A stretch of DNA of 64,000 nucleotides. Source: Ramlibacter sp. Leaf400. GTDB taxonomy: Bacteria; Pseudomonadota; Gammaproteobacteria; Burkholderiales; Burkholderiaceae_C. Position numbers and translations under genes: made by a program. Shown here piece by piece: positions 2,761-63,750 of the stretch. The DNA is taken from NCBI RefSeq assembly GCF_001424545.1, contig NZ_LMQL01000008.1, positions 310,001-374,000 of the forward strand, written 5' to 3'. Every line of letters begins with the position of its first letter. Positions within the stretch are counted from its first letter, which is position 1. The notes beneath the pieces were generated by a model. That model was given only the letters and a program-made list of their open reading frames with translations, made no database searches and was not told the origin of the DNA.

Positions 2761-2802
2761 CGCCAACGGGCCACAGCGGCCGCCGCACGGTGCCCCGCTG
2801 CC

Positions 2803-2808
2803 TACAAT
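2803..2808 (+). promoter_or_regulatory. pgk: Putative -10 element for pgk
   Basis: TACAAT lies 35 bases before the pgk ATG, in the 83-bp gap after azlD. No convincing -35 hexamer sits 16-18 bases upstream. The call rests on the -10 match and on position alone. Confidence 0.35.
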
Positions 2809-2843
2809 CGCCGGTCCTCTTTACAGCGAACCTCCGCGATCCC

Positions 2844-4037: not shown

Positions 4038-4112
4038 CGCCGTAACCGCCGTGTAACCGCGGCCGCGGCGGCATGTGAGAATGCCGCCCACCTTTCACCG
4101 CCAGGAACGCCC

Positions 4113-5546
4113 ATGGCCCGTCGCGCCACCAAGATCGTCGCCACCCTCGGCCCCGCCTCCAGCGATCCCAAGCTGCTCGAACAGATGATCCGGGCCGGCG
4201 TCAACGTCGTGCGCCTGAACTTCAGCCACGGCAAGTCGCAGGACCACATCGACCGCGCCACGCTGGTGCGCGAGGCCGCGCAGCGCGCCGGCCGCGAGGT
4301 GGCCATCATGGCCGACCTGCAGGGACCCAAGATCCGCGTCGGCAAGTTCGCCGAAGGCAAGGTGCTCCTGGAGCCCGGCATGAAGTTCGTGCTCGATGCC
4401 TCGCGAACCGAGCTGGGCAACCTCGAAGGCGTGGGCCTGGACTACAAGGAGCTGCCGCGCGACGTGCGCGCCGGCGACACGCTGCTGCTCAACGACGGCC
4501 TGATCGTGATGACGGTCGACGAGGTCAGGGGCGAGCAGGTCCACACCACCGTCAAGCTGGGCGGCGAGCTGTCCAACAACAAGGGCATCAACAAGCAGGG
4601 CGGCGGGCTGTCGGCCCCGGCGCTGACGGCCAAGGACATGGAGGACATCCGCACCGCCATGAGCTTCCAGGCCGACTACGTGGCGGTGAGCTTCCCCAAG
4701 ACCGCCACCGACATGGAGATGGCGCGCCAGTTGTGCAACGTGGCGGGCGCCGAGTACCGGCACAAGCCGGGCCTGATCGCCAAGATCGAGCGCGCCGAGG
4801 CCATCCCCAACCTCGAGTCCATCCTCAAGGCCAGCGACGGCGTCATGGTCGCGCGCGGCGACCTGGCGGTGGAAGTGGGCAACGCCGCGGTGCCCGCGCT
4901 GCAGAAACGCATGATCCGGATGGCCCGCGCCTGCGACAAGGTCGTGATCACCGCCACGCAGATGATGGAGTCCATGATCACGAATCCGGTGCCCACCCGC
5001 GCCGAGGTCAGCGACGTCGCCAACGCAGTGCTGGACGGCACCGACGCGGTGATGCTCAGCGCCGAGACCGCGGCCGGCAAGTACCCGCTGGAGACCATCA
5101 TCGAGATGGCCAACATCTGCGCCGAGGCCGAGATGGCCGAGGACGTGAAGCTGGACGCCGACTTCAGCGGCATGGAGTTCTCGCGCATCGACCAGTCGAT
5201 CGCCATGGGCGCGCTGTTCACCGCCCACCACCTGGGCTGCAAGGCGATCGTGGCGCTCACCGACTCGGGCTCCACCGCGCTCTGGATGAGCCGCCATCCG
5301 ATCCACATCCCGATCTATGCGCTCACGCCCAAGCTGGTCACGCAGCGCAAGATGGCCCTGTACCGCAACGTGCGGCCGCTGCTGATGGACCAGAGCGCAG
5401 AGCGCGACACGGCCCTGGGCGATGCCGAGGCGCACCTCAAGAAGCGCGGCATCGTCGCTTCCGGCGACATCTACGCCATCACCTGTGGCGAACCGATGGG
5501 CGCGCCGGGCGGCACCAACATGCTCAAGATTTGCCGGGTGGCCTGA
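4113..5546 (+). CDS. pyk: Pyruvate kinase
   Basis: This 477-residue enzyme converts phosphoenolpyruvate and ADP to pyruvate and ATP. It starts MARRATKIVATLGPASS. The NFSHG motif and the catalytic-Lys signature IAKIERAEAIPNLESI are present, as are the ARGDLAVEVG and TATQMMESM segments that shape the active site. The C-terminal regulatory domain (about 350-477) is complete. The ATG has a nearby AGGAA ribosome-binding site. It lies between pgk and fba. Confidence 0.97.
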   Translation: MARRATKIVATLGPASSDPKLLEQMIRAGVNVVRLNFSHGKSQDHIDRATLVREAAQRAGREVAIMADLQGPKIRVGKFAEGKVLLEPGMKFVLDASRTELGNLEGVGLDYKELPRDVRAGDTLLLNDGLIVMTVDEVRGEQVHTTVKLGGELSNNKGINKQGGGLSAPALTAKDMEDIRTAMSFQADYVAVSFPKTATDMEMARQLCNVAGAEYRHKPGLIAKIERAEAIPNLESILKASDGVMVARGDLAVEVGNAAVPALQKRMIRMARACDKVVITATQMMESMITNPVPTRAEVSDVANAVLDGTDAVMLSAETAAGKYPLETIIEMANICAEAEMAEDVKLDADFSGMEFSRIDQSIAMGALFTAHHLGCKAIVALTDSGSTALWMSRHPIHIPIYALTPKLVTQRKMALYRNVRPLLMDQSAERDTALGDAEAHLKKRGIVASGDIYAITCGEPMGAPGGTNMLKICRVA

Positions 5547-12055: not shown

Positions 12056-13006
12056 ATGCCTTTCCAGCGCTTGCGCCGTGCGCTGCTCGCGGCCGCCTGT
12101 GCCTTCCCGATCGTGCTGGCCGCCTGCGGCGGCGGCGACATCGTGTCGGAGTTCCGGCCCGCGCGGCTGGTGGTGTTCGGCGACGCCTTCGCCGACGCCG
12201 GCCAGCGTGGCGTGCGCTACACCATCAACGACGGCACCTCGATCAACTGGACGCAGCAGCTGGCCGCCCGCTACGGCCTGGCGGTCGCGCCCACCAGCGC
12301 CGGCGGCACCTCGTTCGCGACGGGCAGCGCGCGCGTCACGGCCAAGCCGGACGCCGGCGGCAACGCCACCACGCCCACCATCACCGAACAGATCGGCACC
12401 TTCCTCGCGTCGGCCACGCCGGCCGACAGCGACCTGCTGGTGATCAACGGCGGCGTCGCCGACATCCTGGCGCAGATGGCCGCATTCACCACCGGCGGGC
12501 AGTCGCCGGAATCGACCACCGAGGCCGTGCGCCAGGCCGGCCGCGAGTTCGGCGCGCAGGTGCGCCGGCTGGTCGATGCGGGCGCCGAACGGGTGATCGT
12601 GGTCGGGCCCTACAACCTGGGCCGCTCGCCCTGGGCCCGCAACAACGGCCAGTCGGCCTTCGTGGAGCAGCTCGCCACCGCGTTCAACAACGCCCTGCTG
12701 ATCTCCATCGCGGACCTGGGCGGCAACGTGCTGTACGTGGACGCGGCGCTGCACCTGAACCTGGTGACGGCTTCGGGCCCCGCCTTCGGCTTCTCCGACG
12801 TGATCAACCTCGCCTGCAATTCGGCCGACGCGGGCCCCGGCATCGGGGTCGGCGCCGGCCAGGTCAACTCCGCCCTCTGCACGGGCGGCACCCTCGCCAC
12901 CAGCGTCCCCGGCACGACGCTGTTCGCCGACTCGGTGTACCTCACGCCGGCCGGCAACGTCTCCCTGGGCAACTACGCCTTCGACCGCGCGCGCGAGCGC
13001 TGGTGA
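12056..13006 (+). CDS. SGNH/GDSL-fold lipoprotein without catalytic residues
   Basis: This is a 316-residue predicted lipoprotein with the lipobox LAAC (Cys24). The body is laid out like an extracellular GDSL esterase, but key positions are changed. The block I GDS(L/F)SD motif reads GDAFAD, so the nucleophile Ser is Ala44. The block III GxND position reads GVAD (Ala135 for Asn). The C-terminal DxxH reads D292-S-V-Y295, so the catalytic His is Tyr. Asp292 alone survives. The fold seems intact and the hydrolase chemistry lost, which suggests a carbohydrate- or lipid-binding role. Alternatively, these are variant catalytic positions in an uncharacterised subfamily. Confidence 0.75.
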   Translation: MPFQRLRRALLAAACAFPIVLAACGGGDIVSEFRPARLVVFGDAFADAGQRGVRYTINDGTSINWTQQLAARYGLAVAPTSAGGTSFATGSARVTAKPDAGGNATTPTITEQIGTFLASATPADSDLLVINGGVADILAQMAAFTTGGQSPESTTEAVRQAGREFGAQVRRLVDAGAERVIVVGPYNLGRSPWARNNGQSAFVEQLATAFNNALLISIADLGGNVLYVDAALHLNLVTASGPAFGFSDVINLACNSADAGPGIGVGAGQVNSALCTGGTLATSVPGTTLFADSVYLTPAGNVSLGNYAFDRARERW

Positions 13007-13025
13007 TCGGCGGCGCGGCGCGACC

Positions 13026-14414
13026 TCAACGCTCCTGCGCTGCCCACGCCAGCAGCGCCTCGACCGCCGGCCGCAGCGCGTGCGCATTGGCATGGTTGGC
13101 GATGGCCACCACCACCCAGCGACGCCCGCCCGCGCCGTGCACGTAGCCGGCCACGCCGTACACGTCGCGCAGGCTGCCGCTCTTGAGGTGGGCCGCGGCC
13201 GTGGGCCGCGCGCGGCGCATCGTGCCGTCGACACCGGCCGCCGGCAGCGAGGCCACCAGGTCCGGCATCAGCGGCGACGCCCAGGCGTACTGCAGCAGCC
13301 GTGCGAGCTGCGCCGCCGTGGTCCGCTCGTCGCGTGACAGCCCGGAGCCGTTGTCGAAGGTGGGCAGGTCCGGCCCGATCCGCTCGCGCCACCAGCCGCG
13401 CAGCAGCTCGCGCGAGGCCTCGCGGTTGCCCTGGCCGCGCAGCTGCAGGCTGAGCGTCAGGAAGACCTGCTGCGCCATCACGTTGTTGCTGAACTTGTTG
13501 ATGTCGCGCACCACCTCGGCCAGCGGCGGCGAGACGTGCTCGAACAGCGGCACCATGCCGGCGGGCACGCGCCCTTCGCGCACCTGGCCGGCCAGCGTGC
13601 CGCCCATTTCCTGCCAGAGGCCGGCGATCGCCCGCGCCGCGTGGCTCGCCGGGTCGGCGAACGCGACTGCCCAGGTGCGCTCGCCGCAGGCCGCCGGGTA
13701 GCTGCCGTTCCAGCGGGGCCGCAACGGATCGCTGAAGTCGGGCCGCAGGGCGGTTCGCCAGTCGCCGCATTCGCCCGTCGACAGTGGCAGCTGCAGCGGC
13801 CACTCCACGCCCGCCAGCGGCGGATCGGCGGCCACGCGCGCCTGTCCCGCCGCGACCTGCGGCGTGAAGGTGAGCACCAGCGAGCGGAAGTTCAGCAGCA
13901 GCGCGTCGGGCGCCGCGTTGTAGGGCCGCAGCGGCTCGCCATCGAAGGCGGCCGGGTCGGTGCCCAGGGGCTCGAAGGCGCTGCGATCCAGCAGGATGTC
14001 GCCGGCGATCCGGTCGATGCCCATCGCGCGCAGCCGGCGCAGCAGCAGCCACAGGCGTTCGAGCACCAGCTTGGGATCGCCCTGGCCCTTGACGTAGAGG
14101 TTGCCCTGCAGCGTGCGGTCGATGATCGGCCCGTCCACATACACCGGCGTCGACCAGGTGTAGGCGGGCCCCAGCAGTTCGAGCGCGGCGAAGGTGGTCG
14201 CCAGCTTGGCGATCGAGGCCGGGTTCACCGCCTCCTGCGCGCGGTGGCTCAGCCGTGGCGGCACCGCGGGGTCGACGTCGGTGACCAGCAGGGTGACCGC
14301 GTCTCGCGGCAGGCGGGCGCGCGCCAGGGCCGCCTCGACCTCCGCCGGCAGGGGTTGCGCCGCCACGGCACCGCCGCAGTACACGAAGGCGGCCAGGAGC
14401 AGCAGTAAACGCAT
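13026..14414 (-). CDS. dacB: D-alanyl-D-alanine carboxypeptidase/endopeptidase (PBP4)
   Basis: This 462-residue periplasmic class C penicillin-binding protein trims peptidoglycan peptides. The signal peptide is MRLLLLLAAFVYCGGAVAA. The catalytic SxxK appears as NPASIAKLATT, the SxN as NKFSNNVMAQ, and the KTG-like triad as HLKSGSLRDV. The large insertion between SxxK and SxN is typical of DacB. An open frame continues upstream of the chosen ATG, but only this start gives a signal peptide. It is divergent from tsaB. Confidence 0.94.
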   Translation of the reverse strand: MRLLLLLAAFVYCGGAVAAQPLPAEVEAALARARLPRDAVTLLVTDVDPAVPPRLSHRAQEAVNPASIAKLATTFAALELLGPAYTWSTPVYVDGPIIDRTLQGNLYVKGQGDPKLVLERLWLLLRRLRAMGIDRIAGDILLDRSAFEPLGTDPAAFDGEPLRPYNAAPDALLLNFRSLVLTFTPQVAAGQARVAADPPLAGVEWPLQLPLSTGECGDWRTALRPDFSDPLRPRWNGSYPAACGERTWAVAFADPASHAARAIAGLWQEMGGTLAGQVREGRVPAGMVPLFEHVSPPLAEVVRDINKFSNNVMAQQVFLTLSLQLRGQGNREASRELLRGWWRERIGPDLPTFDNGSGLSRDERTTAAQLARLLQYAWASPLMPDLVASLPAAGVDGTMRRARPTAAAHLKSGSLRDVYGVAGYVHGAGGRRWVVVAIANHANAHALRPAVEALLAWAAQER

Positions 14415-50342: not shown

Positions 50343-51296
50343 ATGACGCTCACCGAACTCAAGTACATCGTGGCCGTTGCCCGGGAGAAGCACTTCGGCA
50401 AGGCGGCCGAAGCCTGCTTCGTCTCGCAGCCCACGCTGTCGGTGGCGATCAAGAAGCTCGAGGACGAGCTCGAGGTCAAGCTGTTCGAGCGCAGCGCCAA
50501 CGAGGTGAGCGTCACGCCGCTGGGCGAGGAGATCGTGCGCCAGGCGCAGAGCGTGCTGGAGCAGGCCGCGTCGATCAAGGAGATCGCCAAGCGGGGCAAG
50601 GACCCGCTGGCCGGGCCGCTCAAGCTTGGCGTGATCTACACCATCGGCCCCTACCTGCTGCCGGACCTGGTGCGCCAGGCGATCGCGCGCACGCCGCAGA
50701 TGCCGCTGATGCTGCAGGAGAACTTCACCGTCAAGCTGCTGGAGATGCTGCGCACCGGCGAGATCGACTGCGCGGTCATGGCCGAGCCTTTCCCCGACAC
50801 CGGCCTGGCGCTGGCGGGGCTGTACGACGAGCCCTTCATGGCCGCGGTGCCCAACACGCACGCCTTCGCCACGCGCGAGACCATCACCGCGCAGGAGCTC
50901 AAGAGCGAGACCATGCTGCTCCTGGGCACCGGCCACTGCTTCCGCGACCACGTGCTGGAGGTGTGTCCGGAGTTCGCGCGCTTTTCCAGCGACGCCGAAG
51001 GCATCCGCAAGAGCTTCGAGGGCTCCTCGCTGGAGACCATCAAGCACATGGTGGCCGCCGGCATGGGCATCACCCTGGTGCCGCGCCTGTCGGTGCCCAA
51101 GGACGCGCTCGACCCCAAGCCCAAGCGCCGCCGGGACGACCAGGCCTTCGTGCGCTACATCCCCTTCGACGGCGACCCGCCGATGCGCCGGGTGGTGCTG
51201 GCCTGGCGCCGCAGCTTCACGCGCTACGAGGCCATCGCCGCGTTGCGCAACGCCATCTACGCCTGCGAGCTGCCGGGCGTCAAGAGACTCTCATGA
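50343..51296 (+). CDS. oxyR: OxyR hydrogen-peroxide sensor
   Basis: This 317-residue LysR-family regulator has the HTH at KAAEACFVSQPTLSVAIKKL. The redox pair falls at Cys199 and Cys208 (GTGHCFRDHVLEVC), the same numbers as E. coli OxyR. Peroxide forms the disulfide and activates antioxidant genes. Its stop overlaps the start of a DyP peroxidase gene (ATGA), which places a peroxide-consuming enzyme under direct co-translation. Confidence 0.96.
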   Translation: MTLTELKYIVAVAREKHFGKAAEACFVSQPTLSVAIKKLEDELEVKLFERSANEVSVTPLGEEIVRQAQSVLEQAASIKEIAKRGKDPLAGPLKLGVIYTIGPYLLPDLVRQAIARTPQMPLMLQENFTVKLLEMLRTGEIDCAVMAEPFPDTGLALAGLYDEPFMAAVPNTHAFATRETITAQELKSETMLLLGTGHCFRDHVLEVCPEFARFSSDAEGIRKSFEGSSLETIKHMVAAGMGITLVPRLSVPKDALDPKPKRRRDDQAFVRYIPFDGDPPMRRVVLAWRRSFTRYEAIAALRNAIYACELPGVKRLS

Positions 51297-52210
51297 CCGA
51301 TTCCAAGCTTTTCCAACCGGGGATCCTCGACGGCGTGCCCGCCGTCGCGCGCTTCGTCACCTTCTCCATCCCCGACAAGGGCACGGACGCCGCGCACATC
51401 CGCCAGGCGCTCACGCGCCTGGCGCCGCTGGTCAACGGCAGCGATGCCGTGCTGGGCATCGGCCCCTCGCTGGTCGCCGCGCTCGACGCCAAGGTGCCCG
51501 GCCTGCACGAGTTCCCGGATTTCTCGCGCGAGGGCGTGCGGGTGCCGTCCACGCCCGGCACGCTGTGGTGCTGGGTGCGGGGCGACGACCTGGGCGACCT
51601 GCTGATGCTCACGCGCAAGGTGCAGAAGGCGCTGGCGCCGGCGTTCGCGGTGCGGCACGTGGTCGACGCGTTCCGGCATGCGCTGGGCGAGAGCGGCCAC
51701 GGCAAGGACCTCACCGGCTTCGAGGACGGCACCGAGAACCCGACCGGCGAGAAGGCCGAGGAGGCCGCGTTCGCCAGCGGCCTGGGCGAGGGCATCGACG
51801 GCTCCAGCTACGTGGCCGTGCAGCAGTGGGTGCACGACCTCGACGCCTTCGAGGCGCTGGGCGACGAGGCGGCCAACCACCATTTCGGCCGCCACCGCCT
51901 GACCAACGAGGAGCTGGACGACGCGCCGGAGTGGGCCCACGTCAAGCGCACGGCGCAGGAGAGCTTCGACCCCGAGGCCTTCGTGCTGCGCCGCTCCATG
52001 CCCTGGATGATGAGCATGCAGGCCGGTCTGAACTTCGTGGCGTTCGGCCGGTCGCTCGATGCCTTCGAGGCGCAGATGCGCCGCATGGCCGGCCACGACG
52101 ACGGCATCGTCGACGCCATGTTCCGCATCAGCAAGCCGGTCAACGGGGCGTACTACTGGTGCCCGCCGATGCGCGATGGCCAGCTGGACCTGCGGCAACT
52201 CGGTCTCTAG
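51293..52210 (+). CDS. DyP-type haem peroxidase
   Basis: This 305-residue protein has a DyP fold. GFEDGTENP carries the GxxDG motif with the distal Asp. The proximal haem His is probably in [10 protein letters not shown], and the distal Arg in the LRRSMPW segment. The compact length and lack of a Tat signal indicate a cytoplasmic class (B/P-like). The C-terminus LDLRQLGL is the ordinary family end and lacks an encapsulin cargo tail. It is coupled to oxyR, fitting a peroxide-defence role. Confidence 0.92.
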
Positions 52211-53982: not shown

Positions 53983-55035
53983 TCAGGCCGGCGCGGCGGT
54001 GCTGCCGCGGCACACCAGCTCGACCGGGTACTCCTTGAAGGCGTCCCAGGCCTGGCCTTCCAGCCGGGCGACCAGCTGGTCGGCGGCCGCGCGGCCGATG
54101 TCGGTGATGGGCGTGGCGACGCTGGTCAGGCCCGGCGTCTGGGTGGCGCCCAGGTCGGTGTTGTCCACGCCGGTGATCGACATGCGGCCCGGCACGTCGA
54201 TGCCGGCGTGGCGGCAGGCCAGCATGGCGCCGACGGCGAACACGTCGTTGGTGGCGACCACGGCCGTGGGCGGATCGGGCAGCTGCAGCAGGCCGGCCAT
54301 CGCCTGTTCGGCGGTGGCCAGCGAGATCGGCGCATAGGCCAGGTGCCGCGGGTCCAGCGCCAGGCCGGCCTCGGCGAGCGCGAGCCGAAGGCCCTCGCCG
54401 CGCGCGCGGGCCCGGTCGTTGCCCGGCAGGGGCGCGCTCAGCAGGCCGATCCGGCGATGCCCCAGGGCGATCAGGTGCCGCGCGGCCTGGTAGGTGGCCG
54501 CGCGGTTGTCGAAGCCGATGCTGGGATGCCGCTGCAGCGGGTCCACGCCCCAGGTCAGCACGTAGGGCCGGCCGTAGTCCTCCAGCAGGCCGAACAGGCC
54601 CTGCTCGTGGTCCAGGCCCACCAGCATGAAGGCGTCGACGCCGTGTTCCACCAGCTGCGCGGCGATGCGCGCTTCGGACGCCAGGTCGTAGTGGTGCTCG
54701 GCGAGCACGAGGGAGTAGCCGCGTTCGTCCAGCCGCTGCTGCAGGGCGCTGGTGGTGCGGGCGTACAGCGCGTAATCGAACGACGGGACGATGGCGCCCA
54801 CCATCTTGCTGCGGTGGCTGCGCAGGCTGCGCGCGGCGCCGTGCGGCACGTAGCGGAGCTTGCTGGCGGCGTCCAGCACGCGCTGCCGCGTGGCGGGGTC
54901 GACCTGCACCGAGTTGTTCAGGACCCGCGAGACCGTGGCCGTGGACACGCCGGCCAGGCGGGCCACGTCCTTGGCGCCGGAGCGGCCCTTTCGGGCGCTG
55001 GCTGCCGTCTTGTCCTCCAGTCGTTCCCCGTCCAT
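53983..55035 (-). CDS. LacI-family repressor
   Basis: This 350-residue regulator has a basic N-terminal extension of about 20 residues and a LacI HTH (KDVARLAGVSTATVSRVLNN). A periplasmic-binding-protein-like sugar domain follows. It is divergent from a sugar-type ABC/sulfatase operon. One TGTAATCGATTGCA operator lies eight bases before its own ATG and a second lies before the operon, pointing to auto-control and control of the operon. The inducer is unknown. Confidence 0.93.
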   Translation of the reverse strand: MDGERLEDKTAASARKGRSGAKDVARLAGVSTATVSRVLNNSVQVDPATRQRVLDAASKLRYVPHGAARSLRSHRSKMVGAIVPSFDYALYARTTSALQQRLDERGYSLVLAEHHYDLASEARIAAQLVEHGVDAFMLVGLDHEQGLFGLLEDYGRPYVLTWGVDPLQRHPSIGFDNRAATYQAARHLIALGHRRIGLLSAPLPGNDRARARGEGLRLALAEAGLALDPRHLAYAPISLATAEQAMAGLLQLPDPPTAVVATNDVFAVGAMLACRHAGIDVPGRMSITGVDNTDLGATQTPGLTSVATPITDIGRAAADQLVARLEGQAWDAFKEYPVELVCRGSTAAPA

Positions 55036-55043
55036 GGTGCCGT

Positions 55044-55057
55044 TGTAATCGATTGCA
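55044..55057. promoter_or_regulatory. LacI-family operator 1
   Basis: TGTAATCGATTGCA is a palindrome in 12 of 14 positions around a central ATCGAT. It is identical to the site at 55158-55171 and lies eight bases before the repressor start, so it fits autorepression. Confidence 0.75.
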
Positions 55058-55157
55058 GCGAATCTACCCCATGCAGAAGCAAATGAAAACTCCGTCTATG
55101 GGGAAACCACTGAGGCCAACGAGAATGACGGCGGCCAGATCGCTCGCTAGACTTGCA

Positions 55158-55171
55158 TGTAATCGATTGCA
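55158..55171. promoter_or_regulatory. LacI-family operator 2
   Basis: This is a second identical TGTAATCGATTGCA, with symmetry extending to CATG on both sides (55156-55173). It directly follows a -10-like TAGACT (55148-55153), so bound repressor would block the operon promoter. The centre lies 114 bp from operator 1, which would allow looping. Confidence 0.75.
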
Positions 55172-55222
55172 TGGGTCGAGCCCGGCCCGTCGCCGAAACC
55201 CGTCCACCCCGAGGAGACCTGC

Positions 55223-56638
55223 ATGAAGGAACCCACCCGCTCGCCCGACACGGGCGCCCCCAGCCGCCGCGAGTTCATCGGCCAGGCCGCCGCCCTGGGC
55301 GCCGCCGGCCTTGCGGCCGGATGGACGGCCCCGGCCCTGGCGCAGGGCGCCCCCGACCTGGCGCCCTACCAGCGCGCCAAGATCAACTGGCGCCAGGCCG
55401 AAGGCGAGCAGATCTCGGTCGCGGTGATCCCGGCCAGCTACTTCGACAACCTGCTGGGGCTGCTGCCGCAGTTCGAGGCGCTGACCGGCATCAAGGTGCG
55501 CGCCGAGAAGGTGCCGCCCGGCCAGATCCGCCAGAAGGCGATGCTGGACCTGTCGTCCAAGACGGCGACCTACGCCACCCACTCGGCCGACCCGATGTAC
55601 TACCCGCTGTACGTCTCCAACAAGTGGGTGGAGCCGCTGGACAAGTACCTGAACGACGCCACGCTCACCGACGCGGCCTGGTTCAACTACAACGACATCC
55701 TCAAGGCCTGGCGCGAGGCCGACTCGGTCGACGGCAAGCCGTACGGCATCCCGTACGACGGCGAGGTGACGGTGCAGGTCTACCGCAAGGACCTGTACGA
55801 CGCCAAGGGGCTCAAGCCGGCCGACACCTACGACCAGCTGCTGTCCAACGCCAAGGCGATCCACGACCCGGCCAACCGCGTCTGGGGCCTGGCGATGCGA
55901 GGTTTCTCCGGCGCGGGCCAGAACATGTACATCTACCCGTCGCTGTTCCGCGGTTTCGGCGGCGACTGGATGCAGAACAAGAACGTGGTGGTCAACAGCC
56001 CCGAGGCGGTCAAGGCGCTCGAGTGGTACGTCAACGCCCTGTCGCAGTACGCCCCGCCCGCGGTGCGCAACTGGAACTGGCCCGACATCGCCGACGCCTT
56101 CTCGCAGGGCACGGTGGGCTGCTACCTCGACGCCCACTCGTCGGCCGCGGTGATCACCAACCCGGAGAAGTCCAAGGTCGTGGGCAAGGTCGCCTACGCG
56201 CGCTGGCCCAAGGGCCCGTCGGGCAAGCGGGTGACGTCGATCTGGAACTGGGGCTTCCCCGTCAACGCCGCGCTCAACGACAAGCAGAAGAAGGCGACCT
56301 GGCTGTTCATCTCCTGGGCCGCGTCGGCCGAGACGCAGGCGCGCACCTCCTGGAAGTTCGACGGCCCGGCCAAACGCTCGGGGCTCAACCGCCTGTCCCT
56401 GTGGAAGGCGCCGGAATTCGCCGCGGCCATGAAGGGCGCGGGCGACAACTTCATCCCCGCCGCGCTCGAGTCGCTGGAGCAGGACACCGACGTCGACTGG
56501 CGTCCGCGCGTGCCGCAGTGGCCCGCCATCGGAGAGACCATGGCCACGGCCATCCAGGCCGCGCTGGTCGGCCAGAAGAAGCCGAAGGAAGCGCTGGACG
56601 AGGCGCAGGCGCGCATCGCCCAGATCATGAAGGCCTGA
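55223..56638 (+). CDS. ABC transporter solute-binding protein (sugar type, Tat signal)
   Basis: This 471-residue periplasmic binding protein has a twin-arginine-like signal: SRREFIGQAAALGAAGLAAG, then cleavage near PALAQ. The mature part is a family 1-type solute-binding protein (VIPASYFDNLLGLLPQFEAL, YGIPYDGEVTVQVYRKDLYD, WNWPDIADAFSQGTVGCYL). A GAGGAG ribosome-binding site precedes the ATG. It leads an operon of permeases, ATPase, sulfatase and FGE, so the ligand may carry a sulfate ester (inference). Confidence 0.92.
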   Translation: MKEPTRSPDTGAPSRREFIGQAAALGAAGLAAGWTAPALAQGAPDLAPYQRAKINWRQAEGEQISVAVIPASYFDNLLGLLPQFEALTGIKVRAEKVPPGQIRQKAMLDLSSKTATYATHSADPMYYPLYVSNKWVEPLDKYLNDATLTDAAWFNYNDILKAWREADSVDGKPYGIPYDGEVTVQVYRKDLYDAKGLKPADTYDQLLSNAKAIHDPANRVWGLAMRGFSGAGQNMYIYPSLFRGFGGDWMQNKNVVVNSPEAVKALEWYVNALSQYAPPAVRNWNWPDIADAFSQGTVGCYLDAHSSAAVITNPEKSKVVGKVAYARWPKGPSGKRVTSIWNWGFPVNAALNDKQKKATWLFISWAASAETQARTSWKFDGPAKRSGLNRLSLWKAPEFAAAMKGAGDNFIPAALESLEQDTDVDWRPRVPQWPAIGETMATAIQAALVGQKKPKEALDEAQARIAQIMKA

Positions 56639-56645
56639 TGCCGGC

Positions 56646-57548
56646 ATGACGGTCGCCACGCCCGCGGGCGGGGGGACGCTGGAGCGGCAGGAGCGGCGCT
56701 TTGCGCTCGCCCTGTTCGCGCCCGCGTTCCTGCTCCTGCTCATCACCACCACCGCGCCGCTGGTGTTCCTGGCCTGGAACAGCCTGCAGAAGCTGGACCT
56801 GGGCATGCCCTGGTTGTCCGGCTTCGCGGGGCTGGACAACTACGCCAAGATGGGCAGCGACCCGCGGTTCTGGAACTCGCTGTGGCTGACCGTGGTGTAC
56901 ACGGGATCGACCGTGCTGCTGCAGGTGGTGATCGGCCTGTCGCTCGCCCTGCTGGTGCTGCGCATCCCGCGAGGCCAGGGGCTGCTGCGGGTCGCGGCCA
57001 TCCTGCCGATCGTGCTGGCGCCGGTGGTCGTGGGCCTGTTCTGGCGCACGCTGGTGCTGTCGCCCGACGTGGGCCTGGTCGACCTGGTCACCCGCACGCT
57101 GGGCCTGGGCAGCCACAACTGGCTGGGCGATCCGCAGCTGGCGCTGATCTCGGTGATCGCCATCCACACCTGGCAGTGGACGCCGTTCGCCTTCCTGGTG
57201 CTGCTGGCCACGCTGGCGACGCTGCCGCCCGACGTCTACGAGGCGGCGCGGCTGGACCGCGCCAGCGCGTGGCAGCGCTTCCGCTACATCACGCTGCCGC
57301 TGATCCGCCCCGCGGTCGTGATGGTGGTGATCCTGCGCACGATGACGGCGCTGTCCGCCTTCGCAGCCATCTTCGCCGCGACGGGAGGCGGGCCGGGCAC
57401 CTCCACCGAGATCCTGAACCTGTACGCCTACCGCACCTCGTTCACCGAACTGAACATCGGCTACGGCTCCTCGCTGGCCATGGTGCTGCTGGCGATCACG
57501 ATGTTCGTGTCCTGGCTGCTGTTCCGCCGCAGGAGGGCGCCTGCATGA
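56646..57548 (+). CDS. ABC sugar permease (MalF/UgpA type)
   Basis: This 300-residue inner-membrane protein has six helices. The EAA loop that docks on the ATPase reads YEAARLDRASAWQRFRYITL near residue 200. It starts seven bases after the binding-protein stop, and its own stop overlaps the second permease (ATGA). With that partner it forms the heterodimeric channel. Confidence 0.94.
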   Translation: MTVATPAGGGTLERQERRFALALFAPAFLLLLITTTAPLVFLAWNSLQKLDLGMPWLSGFAGLDNYAKMGSDPRFWNSLWLTVVYTGSTVLLQVVIGLSLALLVLRIPRGQGLLRVAAILPIVLAPVVVGLFWRTLVLSPDVGLVDLVTRTLGLGSHNWLGDPQLALISVIAIHTWQWTPFAFLVLLATLATLPPDVYEAARLDRASAWQRFRYITLPLIRPAVVMVVILRTMTALSAFAAIFAATGGGPGTSTEILNLYAYRTSFTELNIGYGSSLAMVLLAITMFVSWLLFRRRRAPA

Positions 57549-58441
57549 ACGCCACCGCCGTTTCTCCCGTGAACGCCGCCGCCATCGCCGGGCGGTCCGG
57601 CAAGGCCCGGCGCCTGCACCGGACCGTGGTGCTCTATGCCATCGCGGGCCTGCTGGTGTCGGTGTGGGCCTTCCCGGTGCTGTGGGCGCTGCTGACGTCG
57701 TTCAAGACCGAGCGCGACGTGCTGGCCTATCCGCCGCTGCTGGTGTTCACGCCGACGCTGGCCAACTACCGCGACGTGCTGTGGGGCCCGTCGTCGATCC
57801 TGCCCAACCTCTGGTCGAGCATGGTCGTCAGTGTCGGCGCCACGCTGCTCACCATGCTGTTCGCGGTGCCCGCGGCCTACGCCCTGGCACGCCTGCGCTA
57901 CCCGTTCAAGCGGGCCAGCGGCTTCTACGTGCTGGCCACGCAGATGCTGCCGCCGGTGGGCCTGATCATCCCGTACTACCTGGTGCTGCAGCGCGCCGGC
58001 GGGCTGGACACCTACAGCGGGCTGGTGGCGATCTACCTGACGTTCTCGCTGCCGTTCGCGATCTGGCTGATGGTGTCGTACTTCGAGGACATCCCCTACG
58101 AGATGGAGGAGGCGGCCCTGCTCGACCGCGCGGGCCGCCTGCGCACGTTCTGGTACGTGATCCTGCCGCAGGTGGGTGGCGGCATCGCGGTGACCACGGT
58201 GTTCGTGTTCCTGAACGCGTGGAACGAGTTCCTGTTCGCGGTGGTGCTGGGCGGCAACAAGGTCCGGCCGGTCACCGTGGCGATGTTCAACTTCATCTCG
58301 GTCGAGCAGACGCAATGGGCACGCCTGGCCGCCGGCGCGATGGTGGCGATGGCGCCGGTGATCATCGTCGGCCTGCTGGCGCAGCGGCACATCGTCAAGG
58401 GCCTCACGGTGGGAGCGGTCAAGGGAGGTGGCCGGCGATGA
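57545..58441 (+). CDS. ABC sugar permease (MalG/UgpE type)
   Basis: This 298-residue inner-membrane protein has six helices. The EAA loop is YEMEEAALLDRAGRLRTFWY. FPVLWALLTSFKTERDVLAYP near the N-terminus is the MalG-type start. It overlaps the neighbouring permease and ATPase genes by 4 bp on each side, consistent with a stoichiometric complex. Confidence 0.94.
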   Translation: MNATAVSPVNAAAIAGRSGKARRLHRTVVLYAIAGLLVSVWAFPVLWALLTSFKTERDVLAYPPLLVFTPTLANYRDVLWGPSSILPNLWSSMVVSVGATLLTMLFAVPAAYALARLRYPFKRASGFYVLATQMLPPVGLIIPYYLVLQRAGGLDTYSGLVAIYLTFSLPFAIWLMVSYFEDIPYEMEEAALLDRAGRLRTFWYVILPQVGGGIAVTTVFVFLNAWNEFLFAVVLGGNKVRPVTVAMFNFISVEQTQWARLAAGAMVAMAPVIIVGLLAQRHIVKGLTVGAVKGGGRR

Positions 58442-59496
58442 ACCAGAAAAAAGGAAACGTGCGCCTGCGTGGCGTGGTCAAGCGGCACGGCGAGACCACG
58501 GTGCTGCACGGGGTCGACCTGGAGATCCGGGCCGGCGAGTTCTTCGTGCTGCTGGGGCCGTCGGGCTCGGGCAAGACCACCACGCTGCGCATCCTGGCCG
58601 GCCTGGAGCAGGTCAGCGAAGGGCAGGTCCTGATCGACGACGCCGACGTCACCGGCGCCGAGCCGGGCGAGCGCGACGTGGCGATGGTGTTCCAGAGCTA
58701 TGCGCTGTATCCGCACATGACGGTGGCCGAGAACATCGGCTTTCCGCTCAAGATGGTGGGCACGCCGCGCGAGGCGATGGCCCAGGCGGTGGCCGACGCG
58801 GCCGCGCGGGTGAGCATCGGCCACCTGCTGCAGCGGCGGCCCGGGCAGCTCTCGGGCGGGCAGCAGCAGCGCGTCGCGCTGGCGCGCGCGATCGTTCGGC
58901 AGCCGCGCCTGTTCCTGCTGGACGAGCCGCTGTCGAACCTGGACGCCAAGCTGCGGCTGGAGACCCGGCTGGAGCTCAAGCAGCTGCAGCGCTCGCTGGG
59001 CGTGACCACGGTGTACGTGACGCACGACCAGGAAGAGGCCATGACGCTGGCCGACCGCGTGGCCGTGTTCATGGACGGCCGCATCGTGCAGGTGGCCACG
59101 CCGCGCGACATCTTCAGCCGGCCCGCGCAGGTGACGGTGGCCGGCTTCATCGGCACGCCGCCGATGAACCTGGTGCCCGCCACCTGGCAGGGCGACTCGG
59201 TCCTGCTGGATGGCGTGGCCCACGCCGTCGGCGCCACCACCGCGCAGCCGCGCGAAGTGGTGCTGGGCGTGCGCCCGGGCGAGCTGCGCGCCGGGCCGCA
59301 CGGCACGCCCGCCCGGGTGGAGTACGTCGAGGAGCTGGGCGACCACTGCATCGTGGACCTGCAGGCCGGCGGCCAGCGCATGAAGCTCAAGGCCGAGGGC
59401 GCGTCCCGGCTGGGCGAAGGCGCGTCCACCGCGCTCAGCTTCTCGCCGCAGGCCGCCCACCTGTTCGACCGCGCCAGCGGCGAACGACTGAACTGA
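58438..59496 (+). CDS. ABC importer ATPase (MalK/UgpC type)
   Basis: This 352-residue protein has Walker A GPSGSGKTTTLR, a Q-loop at MVFQSYALYPH, the signature LSGGQQQRVALARA and Walker B LFLLDEPLSNLD. The H-loop is at YVTHDQEEAM. A TOBE/regulatory domain (about 235-352; MNLVPATWQGD, VVLGVRPGEL) marks the sugar-importer class. It completes the importer and is followed 22 bp later by the sulfatase gene. Confidence 0.95.
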   Translation: MNQKKGNVRLRGVVKRHGETTVLHGVDLEIRAGEFFVLLGPSGSGKTTTLRILAGLEQVSEGQVLIDDADVTGAEPGERDVAMVFQSYALYPHMTVAENIGFPLKMVGTPREAMAQAVADAAARVSIGHLLQRRPGQLSGGQQQRVALARAIVRQPRLFLLDEPLSNLDAKLRLETRLELKQLQRSLGVTTVYVTHDQEEAMTLADRVAVFMDGRIVQVATPRDIFSRPAQVTVAGFIGTPPMNLVPATWQGDSVLLDGVAHAVGATTAQPREVVLGVRPGELRAGPHGTPARVEYVEELGDHCIVDLQAGGQRMKLKAEGASRLGEGASTALSFSPQAAHLFDRASGERLN

Positions 59497-59518
59497 CCGA
59501 ATCGAAGGAAGGACCGCC

Positions 59519-61135
59519 ATGGACAAGCGCCCCAACATCCTGCTCATCCTGAACGACGACATGGGCTTCTCGGACATCGGCTGCTACGGCGGCGAGGTCG
59601 AGACGCCGAACCTGGACCGCCTGGCCGCCCAGGGCCTGCGGTTCTCCCAGTTCTACAACACGGCCCGCTGCAGCCCCTCGCGCGCGTCGCTGCTGACCGG
59701 CCTGCACCCGCACCAGACCGGCATCGGCATCCTGACCTACGACTCGGGCCCGGAGGGCTATGCGGGCAACCTGAACCAGCGTTGCGCCACCATCCCCGAG
59801 GTGCTCAAGCCGGCCGGCTACCGCAGTTACCTGAGCGGCAAGTGGCACGTGTCGAGCAACCTCCGGGAGCCCACCGATTCCTGGCCGATGCAGCGCGGCT
59901 TCGACGACTTCTTCGGCACCATCATCGGCGCCGGCAGCTTCTACGACCCCAACACGCTCACGCGCCGCAACGAGAACGCCGAGCACGAGGCGCGCGAGCC
60001 GGGCTTCTTCTACACCGACGCCATCAACGACGAGGCGGTCAAGTTCCTGCGCCGCCACAAGGCCGAGCATCCGGACAAGCCGTTCTTCCAGTACGTGGCC
60101 CACACCGCGCCGCACTGGCCGCTGCACGCGCACCCCGAGGACATCGCCAGGTACAAGGGCCGCTTCGACGAGGGCTGGGATCGCCTGCGCGAAGAGCGCC
60201 TGGAGCGCCTGGTGGCCAGCGGCATCCTGGACGCGCAATGGAAGCTGACCGGCCGCGACCCGCGCCAGCCGGCCTGGACCGACAGCGAAAACAAGGCCTG
60301 GCTGGCCAACTGCATGGAGGTCTACGCCGCGCAGATCGACCGCATGGACCAGGGCATCGGCCGCATCCTGAAGGCGCTGGAGGACCTGGACGAGCTGGAC
60401 GACACGCTGGTGATCTTCCTGTCCGACAACGGCGCCTGCGCCGAGGACATCCCGGAAGGCGTGACCGTCGACGAGCTGGTGGACAAGCTCATGATCGCCC
60501 GCTCGCACACGCGCGACGGCCGCGTCGTGCGCTTCGGCAACACGCCCGAGATCGCGCCCGGCCCGGAGGACACCTACCAGAGCTACGGCCAGGCCTGGGC
60601 CAACCTGTCGAACACGCCCTTCCGCCTGTACAAGCACTGGACGCACGAGGGCGGCATCAGCACGCCGCTCATCTTCCACTGGCCCCAGGGCATCGCCCAG
60701 CGCGGCGAGGTCCGCCACACGCCGGGCTACCTGCCGGACATCATGGCGACCATCGTGGACGTCGCCGGCGTGCCCTACCCGCAGCAGCTGGACGGCCGCA
60801 GCATCCTGCCGCTGGAAGGCCATTCGCTGCGCAAGGCGTTCGGCGCCGACGCGGGGGAGCGCCCGCCGATGTTCTGGGAGCACGAGGGCAACGGCGCCAT
60901 GCGCGACGGCCGCTGGAAGCTGGTGCGCGAGTACCCCAGGGACTGGGAGCTGTACGACATGGTGGCCGACCGCACCGAGACGCAGGACCTGGCGGCGCAG
61001 TTCCCCGACCGGGTGGCGGCCATGAAGCGGGCCTACGAGGAGTGGGCCGCGCGCTGCGGCGTGCTGCCGCGCGACAAGGTCGTGGCGCTGATGCGCAGCC
61101 AGGGCGTGACCAAGGCGTTCTGGGAAGACGAGTGA
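59519..61135 (+). CDS. Type I sulfatase (formylglycine-dependent), cytoplasmic
   Basis: This 538-residue sulfatase cleaves sulfate esters. PNILLILNDDMGFSDIGCYG carries the first Ca-binding Asp pair. CSPSRASLLTG holds the Cys51 that is oxidised to formylglycine. SGKWHV, HTAPHWPLHAH and FLSDNGACAED give further active-site residues. There is no signal peptide, so it acts in the cytoplasm on imported substrate. A GAAGGAAGG ribosome-binding site is present. It overlaps the gene for its activating enzyme. It is annotated arylsulfatase-like, but the substrate is not deducible. Confidence 0.95.
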   Translation: MDKRPNILLILNDDMGFSDIGCYGGEVETPNLDRLAAQGLRFSQFYNTARCSPSRASLLTGLHPHQTGIGILTYDSGPEGYAGNLNQRCATIPEVLKPAGYRSYLSGKWHVSSNLREPTDSWPMQRGFDDFFGTIIGAGSFYDPNTLTRRNENAEHEAREPGFFYTDAINDEAVKFLRRHKAEHPDKPFFQYVAHTAPHWPLHAHPEDIARYKGRFDEGWDRLREERLERLVASGILDAQWKLTGRDPRQPAWTDSENKAWLANCMEVYAAQIDRMDQGIGRILKALEDLDELDDTLVIFLSDNGACAEDIPEGVTVDELVDKLMIARSHTRDGRVVRFGNTPEIAPGPEDTYQSYGQAWANLSNTPFRLYKHWTHEGGISTPLIFHWPQGIAQRGEVRHTPGYLPDIMATIVDVAGVPYPQQLDGRSILPLEGHSLRKAFGADAGERPPMFWEHEGNGAMRDGRWKLVREYPRDWELYDMVADRTETQDLAAQFPDRVAAMKRAYEEWAARCGVLPRDKVVALMRSQGVTKAFWEDE

Positions 61136-62085
61136 AGGCCTGCTGCGTCCCGGCGCGCGAGGGAGCCGCAGCGGTGGCGGTGCCGGTCGTGCACGGCCCC
61201 GTCGGCGGCGCGCGCATCGACTGGGTCGACCTGCCGGGCGGGCGATTCACCATGGGCACGGATTCGGCCGAAGGCTTCGCCGAGGACGGCGAAGGCCCGG
61301 CGCGCGCGGTGGAGGTCGCGCCGTTCGCGATCGGCCGCACGGCCGTCACCAACGCGCAGTTCCGCGCCTTCGTCCGCGCCACCTCGTACATCACCGAGGC
61401 CGAGCAGGCCGGCTCCTCCTTCGTCTTCTACCTGCAGGTCGAGCCCCAGCGGCGCGCCGCGATCCGCCAGGTCTCGCGCGAGCTGCCGTGGTGGCTGCCG
61501 GTGGAGGGGGCCTGCTGGCAGCGGCCCGCCGGGCCGGACAGCTGGATCCACGACCGCCTCGACCACCCGGTGGTGCACGTGTCCTGGCACGACGCCGCGG
61601 CCTACTGCGCCTGGGCCGGCGCCCAGTTGCCCACCGAGGCGCAATGGGAGTTCGCGGCCCGCGGCGGACTGGAGGAAAAGCGCTACGCCTGGGGCGACGA
61701 ACTGGCGCCGGGCGGCCGCGAGCAATGCAACATCTGGCAGGGCGAATTTCCGTCGCGCCCCGCCGAGGGTTGGTGGCCGGAGACGGTGCCGGCCACGGAC
61801 TTCGAGCCCAACGGCTGGGGACTGCACCAAGTGGCCGGCAACGCCTGGGAGTGGTGCGCCGACTGGTTCAGCCCCGACTACCACCGCGCCACGGCGGCGG
61901 TCGATCCGCTGCAGCAGCGGCCGACCGGCCGGCGCTCGCTGCGCGGCGGCTCGTTCCTCTGCCACGAGTCGTACTGCAACCGCTACCGGGTGGCCGCGCG
62001 CGGCTCCAACACGCCGGGCAGCAGCGCCAGCAACATCGGTTTCCGCGTCGCCGCACCGGTCGGCGCGCGGCGCCCGCAGGCCTGA
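61132..62085 (+). CDS. Formylglycine-generating enzyme
   Basis: This 317-residue SUMF1/FGE-family enzyme oxidises the sulfatase CxPSR Cys to formylglycine. The N-terminal GGRFTMGTDSAEGFAEDGEG, VSWHDAAAYCAWAG, QLPTEAQWEFAARGG and GNAWEWCADW are family signatures. The copper-binding active Cys pair is Cys277 and Cys282 in CHESYCNRYRVAAR, so it is a true FGE rather than an inactive paralogue. The GTG start overlaps the sulfatase stop (GTGA), coupling enzyme and activator. Confidence 0.95.
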   Translation: MKACCVPAREGAAAVAVPVVHGPVGGARIDWVDLPGGRFTMGTDSAEGFAEDGEGPARAVEVAPFAIGRTAVTNAQFRAFVRATSYITEAEQAGSSFVFYLQVEPQRRAAIRQVSRELPWWLPVEGACWQRPAGPDSWIHDRLDHPVVHVSWHDAAAYCAWAGAQLPTEAQWEFAARGGLEEKRYAWGDELAPGGREQCNIWQGEFPSRPAEGWWPETVPATDFEPNGWGLHQVAGNAWEWCADWFSPDYHRATAAVDPLQQRPTGRRSLRGGSFLCHESYCNRYRVAARGSNTPGSSASNIGFRVAAPVGARRPQA

Positions 62086-62124
62086 CGAAAGCCTGTCTCA
62101 GGCGCTGGGGGACAATCGGCAGTG

Positions 62125-63699
62125 ATGACTCGAGAGGATGCATGGAACCGGCTGGCCTCGGCCGGGACCTTCGACGTGGTGGTGGTGGGGGGCGGCGCGA
62201 CCGGACTGGGCGTCGCACTGGATGCGGCGGCCCGCGGTTTTTCGGTGGCGCTGCTCGAATCGCACGATTTCGGCGGCGGCACCTCGTCGCGCGCGACCAA
62301 GCTGGTCCACGGAGGCGTGCGCTACCTGGCGCAGGGCAACATCGCGCTGGTGCGCGAGGCGCTGCACGAACGCACCGTGCTGCTGCGCAATGCGCCGCAC
62401 CTGGCGCAGCCGCTGGCCTTCGTCATGCCCTCGTACAAGCTGTGGGAGACGCCGTTCTACGGCGCCGGCCTCAAGCTGTACGACGCCCTCGCGGGCAAGG
62501 CGGGGCTGGCGCCCACGCGCTTCCTGAGCCGTGCCGAAACGTTGCGGGCGCTGCCGACAGCGCAGCCCGCCGGCCTCAAGGGCGGGGTCGAATACTGGGA
62601 CGGCCAGTTCGATGACGCCCGCCTGGCGCTGGCGCTGGCCCGCACCGCCGAAAGCAAGGGCGCGTTGCTGGTCAATTACTGCGCCGTCACCGGCTTGCGC
62701 CACGAAGGCGGCCGGGTGGTCGGTGTGCGCTGCGAGGACCGCGAGACCGGGCGCGCCCTGGACCTGGGCGCCCGCTGCGTGATCAATGCCGCCGGGGTCT
62801 GGGTCGACCGGCTGCGCGAACTGGACGGGCAGGCGGTCGGCCGGCCGGTGCGGCCGATGGTGGCGCCCAGCCAGGGCGTGCACGTGGTGGTGGACCGCAA
62901 GTTCCTGCCCGGCCGGCACGCGCTGATGGTGCCCAAGACGGCCGACGGACGCGTGCTGTTCGGCGTGCCGTGGCTGGGCAAGGTCATCCTGGGCACCACC
63001 GACACCCCGCGAACCGACCTGCCGCGCGAGCCGCGGCCGTTCGAGGAGGAGCTGGCCTTCATCCTGGGCGAGGCGCGGCGCTACCTGGCGGTGGCCCCCA
63101 CGATGGCCGACGTGCGCAGCCTGTGGGTCGGCCTGCGCCCGCTGGTCAAGCCGCAGGACGACGACGGCGGCAACACCAAGGCGATCAGCCGCGAGCACAC
63201 GGTGCTGGTAAGCCGCTCGGGGCTGGTCACGGTCACCGGCGGCAAGTGGACGACCTACCGCGCCATGGCCGAGGACGTGCTGGGGCGCTGCTTCGACGCG
63301 CGCCTGCTGGTCAAGGCCGCAGGCGGAGTGACCACCAACTTGCGGCTGGTCGGTGGGGACGTTCCCGCCGGTGCTGCCGTCCCGGTGTGCGACCCGCCGG
63401 GCCTGCACGGCTACGGCTCGGAGGCGGCCAAGGTGCAGGCGCTGCCCGGCGCCGGCGCCGAACTGGGCGGGGGCCTCACCGAGGCGATGGTGCGGTTCGC
63501 CGCCCGCGAGGAGTACGCCCGCACCGTCGAAGACGTGCTGGCGCGGCGCTCGCGCCTGCTGTTCCTGGACGCCGCGCTGGCGGCGCGCCTGGCGCCGGTG
63601 GTGGCGCGGCTTCTGCGCGAGGAAACCGGCGTCGACCCGCACGAGGCCGACTTCACCACCCTGGCGGCCGGCTACCTGCCGCAGCGGCAGCCGGCCTGA
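62125..63699 (+). CDS. glpD: Glycerol-3-phosphate dehydrogenase (aerobic, FAD)
   Basis: This 524-residue membrane-associated flavoenzyme oxidises glycerol 3-phosphate to DHAP and feeds the quinone pool. VVVVGGGATGLGVALDA is the FAD Rossmann loop, followed by GGGTSSRATKLVHGGVRYL. GLVTVTGGKWTTYRAMAEDV is the C-terminal FAD contact. Start options are ATG 62125 or GTG 62122; the ATG was chosen. It lies 39 bp after the FGE gene with a -10-like GACAAT at 62111-62116, so it may have its own promoter or be read through from the sulfatase operon. Confidence 0.95.
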   Translation: MTREDAWNRLASAGTFDVVVVGGGATGLGVALDAAARGFSVALLESHDFGGGTSSRATKLVHGGVRYLAQGNIALVREALHERTVLLRNAPHLAQPLAFVMPSYKLWETPFYGAGLKLYDALAGKAGLAPTRFLSRAETLRALPTAQPAGLKGGVEYWDGQFDDARLALALARTAESKGALLVNYCAVTGLRHEGGRVVGVRCEDRETGRALDLGARCVINAAGVWVDRLRELDGQAVGRPVRPMVAPSQGVHVVVDRKFLPGRHALMVPKTADGRVLFGVPWLGKVILGTTDTPRTDLPREPRPFEEELAFILGEARRYLAVAPTMADVRSLWVGLRPLVKPQDDDGGNTKAISREHTVLVSRSGLVTVTGGKWTTYRAMAEDVLGRCFDARLLVKAAGGVTTNLRLVGGDVPAGAAVPVCDPPGLHGYGSEAAKVQALPGAGAELGGGLTEAMVRFAAREEYARTVEDVLARRSRLLFLDAALAARLAPVVARLLREETGVDPHEADFTTLAAGYLPQRQPA

Positions 63700-63722: not shown

Positions 63723-63750
63723 TTGACAAAGCCTGTGGATAAGGCATAAT
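63723..63750 (+). promoter_or_regulatory. rplN: Strong sigma-70-type promoter for rplN
   Basis: TTGACA (63723-63728) is a perfect -35 hexamer, and CATAAT (63745-63750) is a 5/6 -10 hexamer at a 16-base spacing. This is the best promoter match in the window. Transcription should start near 63757, leaving a leader of about 165 bases before rplN. Confidence 0.78.

Follow-up and report, generated by a model that had tools for sequence, protein, structure and literature searches.

Gene content of the locus

A 64,000-bp stretch of the Ramlibacter sp. Leaf400 genome (contig NZ_LMQL01000008.1, positions 310,001 to 374,000; referred to here as the window) carries a run of genes for an ABC importer, a sulfatase, and a formylglycine-generating enzyme (FGE), which is predicted to take up and use a sulfate ester of glycerol. 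The genes were assigned with Pfam and NCBIfam profile scans, the NCBIfam scores being set against curated cut-offs, and with structure-sequence matches. An initial interpretation made from the DNA letters (the sequence-only reading) had listed seven genes, and the family scans agree with all of them. A LacI-family regulator (53983 to 55035, minus strand; Pfam LacI and Peripla_BP_3; best NCBIfam model a Pseudomonas-type GntR at 227 bits, under its cut-off of 400) is divergent from six plus-strand genes. These encode a solute-binding protein (SBP; 55223 to 56638; SBP_bac_1) with a twin-arginine signal (SRREF) judged by eye, permease 1 (56646 to 57548; BPD_transp_1; top NCBIfam model UgpA, under its cut-off), permease 2 (57545 to 58441; BPD_transp_1; top NCBIfam model MalG, under its cut-off), a UgpC/MalK-type ATPase (58438 to 59496; ABC_tran and OB_MalK; best NCBIfam model UgpC at 404 bits, cut-off 432), a formylglycine sulfatase that resembles PAS and BT4683 (59519 to 61135; Pfam Sulfatase; PDB 7all and 1hdh), and an FGE of the aerobic type (61132 to 62085).

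The junctions match the earlier description, with four overlaps or gaps under 10 bp (SBP to permease 1, gap of 7 bp; permease 1 to permease 2, permease 2 to ATPase, and sulfatase to FGE, overlaps of 4 bp each) and a fifth, ATPase to sulfatase, of 22 bp. The sequence-only reading, whose seven genes stand, had ended the run at the FGE gene and missed the next one: a gene for a GlpD-like FAD glycerol-3-phosphate dehydrogenase (62122 to 63699, or from an alternative start at 62125; plus strand; NCBIfam PRK12266 at 307.5 bits, cut-off 360) follows on the same strand after 36 to 39 bp. It is the single glpD match in its own genome (E value of 1e-5), and the one copy of glpK lies elsewhere on the chromosome.

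The same reading also missed two identical LacI-type operators, TGTAATCGATTGCA, which a genome-wide site search placed at 55044 to 55057 and 55158 to 55171, between lacI and the SBP gene. These are the only 2 sites in the 4,585,682-bp genome at up to one mismatch, and the reversed control gave 0. A resembling operator is present in 26 of the 27 LacI-SBP intergenic stretches scanned, among which two pairs come from the same organism; the exception, L046, carries TGTAAACGATTGCA (loci and genomes are cited by our L and G numbers). When nine relatives were searched with the exact variant pattern, eight had one site each and one had none, and by their coordinates all eight sites fall between the operon's LacI and SBP genes. 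The site in G548 is palindromic and is listed on both strands. From these results, the LacI protein appears to be a local regulator that serves this operon through operators of its own. A wider regulon linked through this operator was rejected, as the genome holds no further site at up to one mismatch.

A cytoplasmic sulfatase with its maturation enzyme and a polyol-type importer

The sulfatase begins MDKRPNILLILNDD. Its open frame is 547 amino acids long versus 538 for the protein, only 9 codons beyond the start, which leaves no room for a signal peptide. The frame length and the CSPSR motif at residues 51 to 55 bear out the earlier description of a signal-less CSPSR sulfatase. The protein belongs to the S1 sulfatases (PF00884, 215 bits), and D13, D14, C51, R55, K108, H110, H199, D303, N304, and K372 are invariant in 29 aligned rows. 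Its catalytic and metal residues were matched to those of PAS by alignment. The structure model (pLDDT of 86.5) has its nearest fold in 7all, which we take to be the structure of BT4683, and then in PAS (1hdh; 33 to 34% sequence identity). PAS is assigned to sulfatase subfamily S1_4 (PMC5066984). Identity as a choline sulfatase (TIGR03417; 101.9 bits, cut-off 433.45) was rejected, as was identity as the phosphonate monoester hydrolase/phosphodiesterase PehA (75.1 bits, cut-off 900).

The FGE scores 263 bits on PF03781 (cut-off 23.3), aligns with structures 5nxl and 6s07, and has the cysteine pair that had been claimed for it, Cys277 and Cys282 in CHESYC. The sequence-only reading had also set the locus apart from the usual exported sulfatases of polysaccharide loci. 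That contrast needs qualifying, as a cytoplasmic sulfatase is not by itself unusual: a review describes Cys-type sulfatases as typically cytosolic (PMC3920027).

The SBP_bac_1 protein, the two BPD_transp_1 permeases, and the MalK-type ATPase with its OB/TOBE domain make up an importer of the CUT1 (polyol/sugar) type. By sequence, the nearest solved structures to the SBP are 5iai (141 bits) and the sorbitol-binding 4rya (133 bits), and in a profile search 4rya was nearest. The sulfoquinovosyl-glycerol binder SmoF (7nbz) reaches 49 bits. An NCBIfam scan of the window SBP returned no match, so it is not assigned to UgpB; a true UgpB encoded in L046 scores 597 bits against a cut-off of 411. The structure model of the SBP (mean pLDDT of 55) was set aside and nothing was drawn from it.

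Recurrence of the unit with different importers

The gene order, which the sequence-only reading had proposed to seek in other genomes, was followed through the 80 top-ranked loci (L046 to L125) from a scan of genome contigs that confirmed at least 581 relatives. In 14 of the top 17 loci (L046 to L062) the SBP, both permeases, the ATPase, and the sulfatase are encoded in the window order; L047 keeps the order from permease 1 onward, where its contig starts, and in L055 and L056 an MFS gene replaces the ABC importer. An FGE was matched in 14 of these 17 loci, is partial in L055, and was not found in L049 or L059. Judged from these loci, the recurrence of the gene order is more than chance.

The importer-sulfatase unit, with or without FGE, is scattered through Betaproteobacteria and Bradyrhizobium, and is also found on a Bradyrhizobium plasmid typed as conjugative. 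Sulfatases at least 73% identical to that of the window occur in 4 of 399 genomes of the family. Wider sampling at an E value of 1e-150 matched 3 of 398 genomes of the phylum, the window's own among them, and in the class 1 of 385, which was the centre itself; these are too few for a rate. A GntR regulator gene lies between the ATPase and sulfatase genes in L057, L060, and L067 (Bradyrhizobium or its family) and in L061 (Tianweitania). Plasmid matches amounted to seven records, three of them from Labrenzia, with five distinct loci (L213 to L217); the five plasmid records that were opened annotate the sulfatase merely as 'arylsulfatase'. A TRAP importer is encoded beside the sulfatase in L065 and on Sulfitobacter, Paracoccus, and Labrenzia plasmids (L214 to L217), with no FGE listed in the fetched L216 stretch. 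An MFS gene lies 3' of the sulfatase gene in L064 (Paenibacillus), and a TctC protein adjoins the more distant Limnohabitans-type sulfatases (55 to 56% identity).

The presence of ABC, MFS, and TRAP importers beside one sulfatase clade suggests that a small substrate is imported whole. The sequence-only reading had proposed that a small sulfated molecule enters the cell intact and loses its sulfate in the cytoplasm, and this proposal gains support because the sulfatase has no signal peptide, the operon recurs, and non-homologous importers accompany the same sulfatase clade. In L051 an anaerobic sulfatase maturase (12580 to 13761; radical SAM, over its cut-off) is encoded directly after the FGE, and in L053 a SulP-type permease (328 bits, under its cut-off of 380) follows the FGE; both genes would fit beside an enzyme that liberates sulfate. 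The L051 locus has oxygen-dependent and oxygen-independent maturation genes side by side.

Association with glycerol genes

In five lineages glpK and/or glpD adjoins the unit of importer, sulfatase, and FGE: the window-genus loci designated type A (glpD only in the window itself), L046 (with L047), L062, L056, and L214 from Sulfitobacter. Among 60 genomes of the genus, a close sulfatase (E value of 1e-200 or below) is encoded in 15, of which nine are type A (81 to 100% identity) and six are type B (74 to 75%). In eight of the nine type A loci glpD is downstream on the same strand. It is preceded by glpK in five of these, with an extra gene between FGE and glpK in G431, and stands at the operon without glpK in the window, G407, and G420.

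The order in L046 and L062 is FGE-glpK-glpD, with FGE-glpK gaps of 18 and 34 bp, respectively, and the L047 contig ends inside glpK. In L046 a UgpB-type glycerol-3-phosphate importer lies across the LacI gene (positions 1 to 4034 of the locus), making it a larger glycerol island. In the MFS-type locus L056 the FGE gene is followed by a GlpR-type regulator gene on the opposite strand (282 bits, cut-off 331), then by a glpD of another subfamily and by glpK. The Sulfitobacter faviae plasmid locus L214 reads glpD-glpK-gntR-sulfatase-TRAP genes-FGE along a single strand, and its GlpK and GlpD both exceed their cut-offs. On PRK12266 the GlpD proteins of L046 (300 bits) and L062 (261 bits) fall below the cut-off, as does that of the window, and those of L056 (759 bits) and L214 (735 bits) lie above it. 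No glpK or glpD match was found in the 63 lower-ranked loci L063 to L125, which were fetched at differing lengths and among which L065 and L067 belong to the same clade. The Labrenzia plasmid locus L217 has genes for a DeoR/GlpR-type regulator, a xylulokinase-like FGGY kinase, and a HAD phosphatase (2356 to 5322) upstream of gntR-sulfatase-TRAP-FGE.

Each glp-linked lineage has members that encode GlpK within the cluster, which favors glycerol over glycerol-3-phosphate as the product of the sulfatase.

Origin of the association

Fifteen glpD sites in congeneric genomes were read, and three have the operon (G407, G420, and G425). As glpD is present at the site with or without the operon, its adjacency within the genus, taken alone, could be chance. 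On the simplest reading, glpD (with or without glpK) already occupied the site when the operon was inserted next to it, loss of the operon elsewhere being the alternative. As a rough estimate, we infer that a given insertion would land beside a glp gene about once per thousand.

Sulfatase trees were built on chosen rows. The first had 51 rows (L066 gave no usable row); the second dropped ten, namely L055, whose contig ends in the FGE gene, and nine distant or long-branch rows; and the third left out seven more and took in five plasmid rows. Glp adjacency needs five changes on each of the three trees. In the second tree, a single clade of the 12 glp-labelled rows, which do not include L214, was rejected (p-AU of 1.96e-16), the group having been labelled by gene neighbourhood after the first tree had been inspected. 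The window GlpD is 63% identical to that of L046, 51% to that of L062, and 35% to that of L056, below the corresponding sulfatase identities of 76, 70, and 74%, which suggests that the glp genes probably did not all travel with a single cassette. The GlpK identities of 69 to 70% (G425 versus L062 or L046) are less clear on this point.

A predicted pathway for glycerol sulfate

From the glpK/glpD neighbourhood in five lineages the substrate is predicted to be a glycerol sulfate ester. We put the probability that the operon takes up and uses such an ester, 2,3-dihydroxypropyl sulfate or an isomer, at roughly 0.64. Also counted in its favor are the short gaps between FGE and glpK or glpD in L046, L062, and the window, the similarity of the SBP to sorbitol-binding 4rya and to 5iai, the lack of any glpK or glpD match in the 63 lower-ranked loci, the presence of the glpD-glpK run in L214 although its importer is of the TRAP type, and the existence of glycerol sulfate isomers in aerosols. 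Hydrolysis of glycerol sulfate is chemically plausible in view of the alkyl sulfate activities described for two formylglycine enzymes, the choline sulfatase SmCS, which acts specifically on a primary alkyl sulfate, and PAS, which cuts secondary ones (PMC5870055).

In the proposed pathway, the LacI protein would sense glycerol sulfate or its product and leave its two operators. The Tat-exported SBP and the CUT1 ABC importer would carry the intact ester into the cytoplasm, where the FGE would turn sulfatase residue Cys51 into formylglycine and the matured enzyme would free sulfate and glycerol. Glycerol would be phosphorylated by GlpK, which is an operon neighbor in several relatives, and the adjoining GlpD would oxidize the resulting glycerol-3-phosphate to dihydroxyacetone phosphate, so that one molecule would supply carbon, energy, and sulfur. 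The ligand, the direction of regulation, and co-transcription with glpD are what we infer in this scheme. That it is a dedicated pathway for carbon and sulfur, assembled more than once from one sulfatase clade, an ABC, TRAP, or MFS importer, and GlpK/GlpD, seems to us an even bet.

Several observations weigh against these proposals. Most sulfatase loci do not have the glycerol genes: at 200 bits, 77 of the 80 loci are without a glp gene, and the three that are glp-adjacent (four with the partial glpK of L047) are all among the best 17. In the genus, G422 (type A) and the six type B loci have no glp gene in the fetched stretch, and the other 12 of the 15 congeneric glpD genes lie on the proC side without the operon, with glpK between in five. 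Just one of the five distinct plasmid loci (L214) is glp-linked; L213, L217, and L222 have nothing of the kind beyond an upstream GlpR/DeoR-type regulator, two further genomes (L221 and L222) carry the ABC unit without glpK or glpD, and neither gene is present in the stretch fetched for L065, to which L214 is most closely related. The reversed GlpR-type gene between FGE and glpD in L056 means that those two genes are not expected to share a transcript. The window protein, under the NCBIfam cut-off for GlpD, is strictly 'GlpD-like', an assignment made from its domains and best hit. In the window's own genome, the search at up to one mismatch placed no further operator near glp genes. Counting only well-supported branches, the three trees require 4, 2, and 4 changes, and glp adjacency may have had one old origin followed by losses.

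The SBP orthologs also weigh against a transporter devoted to glycerol sulfate. At an E value of 1e-150, 8 of 399 genomes of the order have one. Three of these (the window's own, G548, and G686) pair it with the window-type sulfatase and FGE; three (G658, G623, and G602) pair it with GMC oxidoreductases and no sulfatase match; and in G761 an ortholog of 76% identity is encoded beside a choline-sulfatase-family protein and a TctC-like protein, with a further sulfatase-like protein nearby, as judged by eye. The contig of the eighth (G516) is too short for its neighbourhood to be read. Because these orthologs pair with different enzymes, the transporter clade would either handle at least two kinds of solute or serve a family of related alcohols and esters.

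The G761 locus (L198; G761:C3:47000-65000) has, between 2100 and 10655, genes for LacI, the sulfatase-like protein, the TctC-like protein, the choline-sulfatase-family protein, and the importer ortholog. Its sulfatase-like protein seems, by eye, to be without a CxPSR motif, and the cluster is possibly a different sulfate-ester system. In the GMC loci (L199 to L201) the SBP orthologs are 62 to 71% identical to that of the window; L200 has a GntR-type gene, and L201 has a pair resembling sulfopyruvate/phosphonopyruvate decarboxylase subunits (under cut-offs) with an adjoining gene for a TauC-like permease.

Other substrates considered

These orthologs bear directly on the strongest competitor, in which the operon scavenges one or more other small sulfates of alkyl or polyol type (choline sulfate, a C4 to C6 polyol sulfate), and the glp genes are beside it by chance or because a glycerol-like product enters that route in some lineages only. 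The choline-sulfatase-family protein of L198 scores 587 bits against a cut-off of 433, with 6fny as its nearest structure, and the GMC oxidoreductases of L199 to L201 are akin to choline dehydrogenase (under cut-offs where scanned). The rarity of glp genes among the 80 loci and the profile match of the SBP to sorbitol-binding 4rya agree with such a substrate as well. However, it leaves unexplained the glp adjacency in five lineages with three importer types (ABC, MFS, and TRAP), the window sulfatase reaches only 102 of the required 433 bits on the choline-sulfatase model, and its relative PAS yielded no choline from choline sulfate in the work reported in PMC5870055. We consider this explanation unlikely, with a probability of about one in five.

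A sulfated sugar or glycoside as the substrate, on the pattern of BT4683, which removes the 3-O-sulfate from galactose, is improbable. The best structural neighbor of the window sulfatase is 7all, and the S1_4 enzyme BT4683 is described as a 3S-Gal sulfatase (PMC10154612). In L050 and L217, xylulokinase-type FGGY kinases encoded close to the unit suggest that other polyols or sugars are involved at those loci, which counts against glycerol sulfate there. LacI-controlled CUT1 importers often serve sugars. However, no glycosidase was met among the selected neighbor proteins scanned, glpK and glpD recurring instead, and TRAP importers, which are unusual for sugars, replace the ABC importer in L065 and L214 to L217.

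Slightly less probable still is that the 'sulfatase' is a phosphodiesterase that frees glycerol-3-phosphate from imported glycerophosphodiesters to feed GlpD directly: the Ugp-like ATPase and permease scores, the glpD genes that lack a glpK at the operon, the UgpB next door in L046, and the promiscuous hydrolysis of phosphodiesters by PAS are consistent with it, but GlpK, which freed glycerol-3-phosphate would not need, is clustered in members of all five lineages, the metal ligands D13, D14, D303, and N304 match those of sulfatases, from which phosphonate monoester hydrolases differ, the L053 permease and L051 maturase suit sulfate release, and the PehA score is just 75 of 900 bits.

Glycerol sulfate remains the preferred substrate. 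Two of its isomers have been confirmed in aerosol samples (PMC12224290). The literature that we searched, outside of which lie most subscription journals, gave no biological route or sink for glycerol sulfate and no description of an equivalent operon combination with this substrate. What is new here is the predicted substrate; cytoplasmic sulfatases are already known. If the prediction is right, it would provide a substrate for a sulfatase clade so far labelled 'arylsulfatase' in five plasmid records and a candidate biological route for the glycerol sulfate of aerosol particles, and bacteria would couple sulfate-ester uptake to the glycerol pathway via different importers.

Flanking sequence

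The promoter scan gave one promoter-like site, sigma-70-like (11/12), at 63723 to 63750, 3' of glpD, and the terminator scan gave two terminator-like sites versus 2.9 expected by chance. Genes 3' of the promoter-like site resemble, by eye, the rplN ribosomal-protein operon, and the congeners that were read (L043 from 2922) have the same genes 3' of glpD. The end of a long open reading frame (51293 to 52210, plus strand) presumably encodes a Dyp-type peroxidase.

Comparison with known systems

The window SBP has detectable similarity to SmoF, a binder of an organosulfur glycerol glycoside, but the SmoF ligand is a sulfonate rather than a sulfate ester, and its 49 bits compare with 141 for 5iai and 133 for 4rya. 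The slf operon of plasmid pP62BP1 is likewise a proposed alkyl sulfate catabolism operon (PMC3346939). Unlike the window, slf is described as having a metallo-beta-lactamase-type alkylsulfatase and a fatty-acid-CoA ligase, with dodecyl sulfate as the proposed substrate, and none of its five genes is described as a transporter (PMC3346939). In choline-O-sulfate utilization (betC; SmCS, subfamily S1_12) a formylglycine sulfatase also cuts a small alkyl sulfate and the alcohol is then oxidized (PMC5870055, PMC5066984). The window sulfatase, in contrast, is of another subfamily, and its neighbors are GlpK/GlpD rather than BetA/BetB. The Ugp/Glp route shares with the window a UgpC-like ATPase, a UgpA-like permease, and GlpD, but the window SBP is not UgpB, and a sulfatase and FGE replace the phosphodiesterase.

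The closest parallel to the enzyme is AtsA/PAS of Pseudomonas aeruginosa, a formylglycine sulfatase of the same fold that also has no signal peptide. AtsA is presumably encoded beside the sulfate-ester ABC importer atsRBC, and would also combine cytoplasmic desulfation with an importer nearby. This importer, of the sulfonate/taurine type, is regulated by sulfur starvation. Unlike the AtsA system, the window combines a polyol-like CUT1 importer with a LacI regulator that has operators of its own, and it also encodes an FGE and a glycerol gene beside the sulfatase.

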